A DNA stretch of 64,000 bases from Natranaerobius thermophilus JW/NM-WN-LF (lineage in GTDB: Bacteria; Bacillota; Natranaerobiia; Natranaerobiales; Natranaerobiaceae). Each line of letters begins with the position of its first letter. The first letter of the stretch is position 1. The DNA lies in the NCBI RefSeq assembly GCF_000020005.1, contig NC_010718.1, positions 2,996,001-3,060,000 on the forward strand, given 5' to 3'. Below, piece by piece: positions 60,605 through 61,484 of the stretch. The notes under the pieces are model-generated. The model worked only from the letters and a program-made list of their open reading frames with translations. It ran no database searches and was not told the origin of the DNA. The position numbers were made by a program, and so were the translations under genes.

Positions 60605-61285
60605 TTATTCCGTTTTAATATCTAGTTTATTTATTACATCCTGAAAACTCTTAATTTTATTAGCTTCAATTCCTTTCGATTTTGCTATTTGATATAGTTT
60701 TTCTTTGGCAAAAACAAGGTCTGCAATTTCTATGGGACATCGGTCTGAATAGCCATCTCCTACATAGATTGTTTTAGGGACAGTTTTAAAATTGCTAATT
60801 AAGCTTCGAATTATTGCAGTTTTGCAGCTACCACACTGATGACAGTTATCATTAGAATATGGTGTTGTCATACTGAAATTTCTATTGTTAACCAATAATT
60901 TATTAGCGTAAAAAGGAATATGTGATAATCCTTCTCTACCTAAAATTTCTTTAATTAATAAATCATAACCATCACTTACAATGTATAGCTGATCACCTTC
61001 TCTATTTATTATGTCAACAAATTTTTTAAAATCAGGGTCAATTTGAATATTACTTATAGCTCTGCTAACATCCTCCCAGGAACAATCAAATAACTTAAAG
61101 GTCTCTCGAGCAACATCTTTTGTCGTAAGCTCACCTTTTTCCCACTGTTGATTAAGCTCTTGCCATCCATTTCGGGCACAAGTTTGAATCATTAAATTAC
61201 AACTGTCTTGAAATGTAACGGTTCCATCAAAATCCGTGACAAACAAGCGCGGCTTCCTTAATCTATTAGTATGTTCATCACTCAC
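60605..61285 (-). CDS. HAD-superfamily phosphatase under TPP riboswitch
   Basis: A 226-aa paralogue of the gene at 132-821. It has DFDGT (18-22), Ser104 in YIVSDGYD, GDGYSDRCP (176-184) and three clustered cysteines (148, 151, 154) where the first copy has two. The TPP riboswitch before it predicts a role in thiamine metabolism, for example dephosphorylation of thiamine monophosphate or of the HMP or thiazole phosphates. Bacteria often lack a dedicated known enzyme for this. That function is inference from regulation. ATG start behind AAGGAGAG. Confidence 0.82.
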   Translation of the reverse strand: MSDEHTNRLRKPRLFVTDFDGTVTFQDSCNLMIQTCARNGWQELNQQWEKGELTTKDVARETFKLFDCSWEDVSRAISNIQIDPDFKKFVDIINREGDQLYIVSDGYDLLIKEILGREGLSHIPFYANKLLVNNRNFSMTTPYSNDNCHQCGSCKTAIIRSLISNFKTVPKTIYVGDGYSDRCPIEIADLVFAKEKLYQIAKSKGIEANKIKSFQDVINKLDIKTE

Positions 61286-61334
61286 TTAATCACTCTCCTT
61301 ATATATTGGGAACCACTATCAACTAACAAAAATT

Positions 61335-61365
61335 AGGACCTTTACCCGATCTAGGGAAAGGTCCT
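61335..61365 (-). terminator. terminator of the TPP riboswitch
   Basis: AGGACCTTT plus CCC (61335-61347) pairs with GGG plus AAAGGTCCT (61354-61365), with one unpaired A. Minus-strand readout ends in AATTTTTGTT. It lies between the aptamer and the HAD gene, as expected for an OFF switch acting on transcription. Confidence 0.88.
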
Positions 61366-61389
61366 ATTAACTAATACATTACAGGATCT

Positions 61390-61484
61390 ATGAGTAATTC
61401 CCTGCGCTGGCATTACCCAGATCAGGTTAAAGGGTCAGGACCTCTTCAGGTCCACTCTCAGCCAATACGGCTCCCCTAATTTGC
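61390..61484 (-). promoter_or_regulatory. TPP (thiamine pyrophosphate) riboswitch aptamer
   Basis: On the minus strand the leader has GGGGAGCC, then GGCTGAGA (61456-61463), a GGACCTGAAGAGGTCC side hairpin, ACCCTTTAACCTGATCTGG and GTAATGCCAGCGCAGGGA. These are the conserved blocks of the THI-box in the correct order. The downstream terminator is the expression platform. TPP should shut off the HAD phosphatase gene. Confidence 0.96.

Follow-up and report, generated by a model that had tools for sequence, protein, structure and literature searches.

On the minus strand of a 64,000-nucleotide stretch of the Natranaerobius thermophilus genome, hereafter the window, a TPP riboswitch is followed by a terminator hairpin and then by a gene for a 226-aa HAD-IB phosphatase. 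The gene (60605..61285, GTG start) matches TIGR01489 and PF06888 and is predicted to encode a thiamine monophosphate (TMP) phosphatase; sequence inspection places a minus-strand ribosome-binding site, AAGGAG, at 61295..61300. The aptamer (61382..61487, minus strand) is a full-length match to RF00059, with a cmscan score of 66.1 bits against a gathering threshold of 54.3 and coverage of model positions 1 to 105. Between the aptamer and the gene sits an intrinsic terminator hairpin with a U-run (61327..61366, minus strand), the likely expression platform, whose 13-pair stem (61366 to 61334) has a folding energy of -20.0 kcal/mol (z of -4.34 versus shuffles). A simple terminator scan of the leader listed nothing, and the hairpin was seen by folding. 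An earlier note on this DNA had described a TPP aptamer and terminator leading into the 226-aa HAD, and the RF00059 match, the folded hairpin, and the ORF at 61285-60605 confirm this arrangement. Its coordinates, 60605-61484, do cover the HAD gene and the switch, although the aptamer match runs three bases further, to 61487. A promoter-like sequence, TTGACA-18-TACTAT with a TG before the second hexamer, lies at 61502..61531 on the minus strand and scores 10/12 in a consensus scan; such sites are about as numerous as expected by chance from shuffles and are thus weak evidence for a promoter here.

Directly downstream of the HAD gene, a 54-aa ORF (60324-60488, minus strand; MYIQKNVGFYDRIIRIVIGIG...) looks membrane protein-like and, by eye, resembles DUF2892 proteins. 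At 4116-5862 on the minus strand, the window also holds a group II intron, recognized by matches to RF02001 and RF01998 and by a reverse-transcriptase ORF. A near-identical intron ORF is located 5' of the pyrophosphokinase gene at locus L044, indicating that this intron is multicopy in the N. thermophilus genome.

The HAD protein scores above the cut-offs of two Pfam models, PF06888 (59.4 bits) and PF12710, and reaches 109.4 with TIGR01489, the NCBIfam model of the HAD-IB MtnX-like subfamily (curated cut-off, 81.55). The HAD motifs are retained as DFDGT, SDG, CGSCK, and GDGYSD, and residues D18, D20, S104, K155, G176, D177, and D181 are invariant among 18 relatives. An AlphaFold2 model built from an 18-row alignment has a pLDDT of 93.4. 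Its closest solved structure is Bacillus subtilis MtnX (2fea; Z of 26.6, rmsd of 2.0 over 210 residues, 24% identity), and phosphoserine phosphatases come next in the ranking, with Z of about 20. The modeled fold shows a HAD-IB phosphatase and gives no indication of the substrate.

N. thermophilus is a soda-lake bacterium, an anaerobic, halophilic alkalithermophile. Four TPP riboswitches were found across its three contigs (chromosome, 3,165,557 bp; 3,191,453 bp altogether), and they precede thiS-thiG-thiH-thiE, thiT, thiW-thiD-thiM-tenA, and the HAD gene, which is the sole phosphatase gene under any of them. A published table gives the replicons as 3,165,557, 17,207, and 8,689 (PMC2613243). 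NCBIfam models for ThiS, ThiH, ThiW, ThiD, ThiM, TenA, and ThiT, and also ThiE, are matched over cut-off; thiG, which has no NCBIfam match, was named by its sequence and position. Thiamine pyrophosphokinase (TPK) is likewise encoded, over cut-off at 180 bits, by a gene without a riboswitch. Within the window, a tblastn search with the thi proteins of this same genome found no other thiamine-synthesis genes, in agreement with the earlier note. ThiC was sought in the genome and is absent, which leaves uptake or TenA salvage as the source of HMP. ThiL was not found either, the ThiL model having two matches in the genome, at 86 and 48 bits versus a cut-off of 184; a hidden ThiL was rejected as an explanation because these matches are SelD and PurM. 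The product of ThiE is TMP, and the pyrophosphokinase needs free thiamine. With ThiE and TPK present and ThiL absent, this genome therefore requires a TMP phosphatase, and it has the ThiE+ TPK+ ThiL- profile associated with HAD TMP phosphatases of the type discussed by Hasnain et al.

The search for HAD homologues covered 249 genomes of the phylum, and TPP riboswitches were sought in 56 of the genomes that had a HAD match. A HAD of at least 120 bits occurs in 33 genomes. In 18 of these, a TPP switch lies no more than 11 kb away, on either strand, where switch numbers and genome size predict 0.65. In 16 of the 33, the HAD gene lies downstream of the switch on the same strand and within 11 kb, usually in a thi operon. 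The earlier note had suggested looking for the riboswitch-HAD pairing in other genomes, and by either count the pairing recurs.

In an 83-row tree from a quick search, with moderate backbone support, the HAD falls inside a 37-row Bacillota clade (SH-aLRT of 91), where it pairs with the HAD of a sister genus (97). This clade, referred to below as the thi clade, takes in all 21 rows with thi context (one of them, L101, counted by its switch alone), and MtnX lies outside it. Among the residues that distinguish the clade, only T55, A59, and Y107 stand out, too few for a substrate signature. The window encodes a second MtnX-like HAD-IB protein (132-821, minus strand; 229 aa), which shares 32% identity with the first, lacks a TPP riboswitch, and also falls outside the thi clade. 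Its gene adjoins two genes resembling those for subunits of indolepyruvate ferredoxin oxidoreductase, a TPP-dependent enzyme.

Same-clade HADs in related Bacillota are found inside thi operons, often directly 3' of thiE. The gene order is thiD-thiM-thiE-HAD-TPK at three loci (L077, L078, and L080) and thiE-HAD at seven (L076, L079, L082, L087, L090, L099, and L100), while L103 has HAD-thiS-thiG-thiH-thiE and L104 has TPK-switch-HAD-thiS-thiG-thiH. Pelotomaculum sp. UBA1371 (L116) carries thiD-thiM-thiE-HAD, and a Syntrophomonadaceae metagenome-assembled genome (L120) carries thiM-HAD. Members of the clade thus adjoin thiE, thiD, thiM, thiS, and TPK genes, the clustering looked for in HADs of the Hasnain type. 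In genome G150, a switch of 41.5 bits, which is under the gathering threshold (E of ~1e-6), lies directly 5' of the HAD gene, and the next gene looks like rsmA; this would be a second case of a switch and a HAD without thi genes. Some clade members stand apart from thi genes and TPP switches, and a permissive cmscan of six loci with such "lonely" HADs detected no weak TPP switches beside them. One clade HAD (L081, 605-1711, minus strand) adjoins an FMN riboswitch and, on the opposite strand, a cobalamin-riboswitch match; an ORF between them looks like a riboflavin transporter. Elsewhere, two TPP riboswitches stand in tandem, about 100 bases apart (G038:C17:13097-13408, minus strand).

The sister genus also suggests how the gene came to stand alone. 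Its genome (G005, locus L075) has an RND transporter, a TPP switch, thiD, and the HAD, in that order, and this transporter shares 60% identity with the neighbor at 63998-61569 in the window. The aptamer cores of the two leaders align and are largely identical; a similar terminator hairpin occurs at the same place, with a stem that differs between the two. The window has no thiD between the switch and the HAD gene; the genome carries a thiD in a different riboswitch operon. Because the sister genus keeps the switch, the terminator, and the transporter, with thiD before the HAD, the "orphan" HAD is most simply a reduced thiD-HAD operon. The other possibility is that thiD was inserted in the sister genus.

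Further evidence comes from the distribution of ThiL. Of the 249 genomes, 79 have ThiL over cut-off and 177 have TPK over cut-off, and a ThiE match occurs in 179. ThiL is found in none of the 22 genomes with a HAD of at least 155 bits, and TPK is found in 21 of them. All 19 ThiE-bearing genomes with such a HAD are ThiE+ TPK+ ThiL- (Fisher p of 8e-6, a value that ignores relatedness). The genome sets for this comparison were compiled by hand from search tables. Repeated swaps within families are less exposed to the objection from relatedness: in the order to which N. thermophilus belongs, as well as in families f29, f16, f73, and f34, the HAD occurs in some members and ThiL in others, never the two together. 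In families f40 and f68, weaker HAD matches coexist with ThiL, and those HADs fall outside the thi clade.

Since N. thermophilus has no ThiL and relatives of the HAD occur in vitamin B1 operons, the HAD very probably removes the phosphate from TMP. The observations are the aptamer, the terminator, the pathway gene set with ThiL missing, the conserved gene order in operons, and the phylogeny; the substrate of the HAD and the direction of its regulation are what we infer. We consider it highly likely that the gene encodes the TMP phosphatase of a ThiE-HAD-TPK route and that TPP represses it through the leader. In such a route, ThiE would join the pyrimidine and thiazole halves to form TMP, the HAD would strip the phosphate from TMP to yield thiamine, and thiamine pyrophosphokinase would convert thiamine to TPP. 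Plentiful TPP would bind the leader aptamer, the terminator hairpin would form, and the HAD gene would be turned off in concert with the other operons under TPP riboswitches (thiSGHE, thiW-thiD-thiM-tenA, and thiT). The earlier note had named the protein a candidate TMP phosphatase, a proposal that genome context, pathway need, and recurrence strongly support. It had also placed the enzyme in thiamine salvage; a description confined to salvage fits the predicted role less well than one that puts it directly after ThiE on the way to TPP.

Promiscuity is common among HAD phosphatases and counts against a firm TMP assignment. The HAD might be a broad-specificity enzyme with a share in TMP hydrolysis, the main TMP phosphatase here being another HAD (e.g., one of subfamily IA), an arrangement that we regard as quite improbable. 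About two-thirds of the ThiE+ TPK+ ThiL- genomes (68/100) have no close homologue at 100 bits, and so other phosphatases must serve in genomes that do without this HAD family and could serve in N. thermophilus as well. Subfamily IA HADs have been proposed for the TMP step in Paenibacillus (PMC5627462), and the second family member, at 821-132, offers a further candidate within the window itself. Nevertheless, only one of the genome's four TPP riboswitches, that of the HAD, precedes a phosphatase gene, and the second member has neither a switch nor a place in the thi clade. It is similarly hard to credit that HMP phosphate or thiazole phosphate is the substrate, with the HAD acting under TPP control as a valve for salvage or overflow. 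ThiD and ThiM, which make such phosphates, are encoded in the same operons; however, a HAD of this kind would oppose ThiD and ThiM while being switched on under the same conditions, and both the alternation with ThiL and the gene order with ThiE and TPK would be left unexplained. Finally, the HAD has almost no chance of being MtnX, the methionine salvage phosphatase, or an enzyme close to it in function. That function is suggested by the nearest solved structure and by the name of the MtnX-like subfamily model but is rejected because the protein scores far below the equivalog cut-offs (TIGR03333, 80.4 versus 303.2; NF007103, 96.6 versus 292) and because the genome has no MtnW, the enzyme that makes the MtnX substrate (no TIGR03332 match). 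The position of MtnX in the tree and a regulator that senses TPP also speak against it.

With TMP as the preferred substrate, a likely function can be given to a protein named only "MtnX-like" in family libraries, and the last gap of TPP synthesis would be filled in an extremophile that lacks ThiL. An entire clade of HAD proteins in Bacillota would gain a likely name too. More tentatively, we suggest that the clade forms a distinct lineage of specific TMP phosphatases, often controlled by TPP riboswitches, that has repeatedly alternated with ThiL in Bacillota families, with the window representing a stage after the loss of thiD from the operon; we hold this broader proposal to be possible rather than probable. 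In a stranger variant of it, the substrate would be a damaged or altered form of thiamine phosphate and not TMP.

HAD TMP phosphatases of bacteria and plants were described by Hasnain et al. (2016, Biochem J 473:157), as cited in passages of PMC5627462, PMC5853225, and PMC9911876. The earlier note had considered the last dephosphorylation steps poorly assigned in many bacteria, and this gap is less open, given that the passages in PMC5627462 and PMC9911876 place the publication of such enzymes in 2016. The idea is therefore already known, and the HAD described here is one more example of ThiL replacement, a modest surprise. Where PMC5627462 refers to HADs at the TMP step, it describes them as subfamily IA only. 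The Hasnain-type enzymes resemble the window HAD in their HAD fold, in genes that belong to thi operons or are fused to them, and in ThiE+ TPK+ ThiL- genomes. In contrast, the window HAD gene stands alone behind its own riboswitch, and the activity of its product is a prediction. The abstract of the 2016 study reportedly names Syntrophomonas wolfei, Anaerotruncus colihominis, and Dorea longicatena and both subfamilies IA and IB, and one of the tested enzymes is said to come from S. wolfei. Genome G015, which is probably that of S. wolfei, has a thiD-thiM-thiE-HAD operon (L100) whose HAD is 35% identical to the window HAD and belongs to the same clade. If this identification is correct, TMP phosphatase activity has been measured for a relative of the window HAD.

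Among other known proteins, MtnX (2fea) resembles the window HAD in its fold, its HAD-IB catalytic residues, and its CGxCK motif and differs from it in the low sequence identity, in the MtnX model cut-offs that the window HAD falls far below, in the missing MtnW, and in regulation. Arabidopsis TH2 and At4g29530/PECP3 are, like the predicted role here, HAD phosphatases reported to act on TMP. The HAD domain of TH2, a TMP phosphatase, is set in a different architecture from that of the window HAD. PECP3 was first reported as a TMP phosphatase and, according to the account in PMC9911876, was later found to favor phosphoethanolamine. ThiL, the TMP kinase that N. thermophilus lacks, has an unrelated fold and catalyzes a kinase reaction, yet it acts on TMP at the same pathway step and would be replaced by the HAD together with TPK. 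The alternation of this pair with ThiL within families offers a clean, testable case of route replacement.
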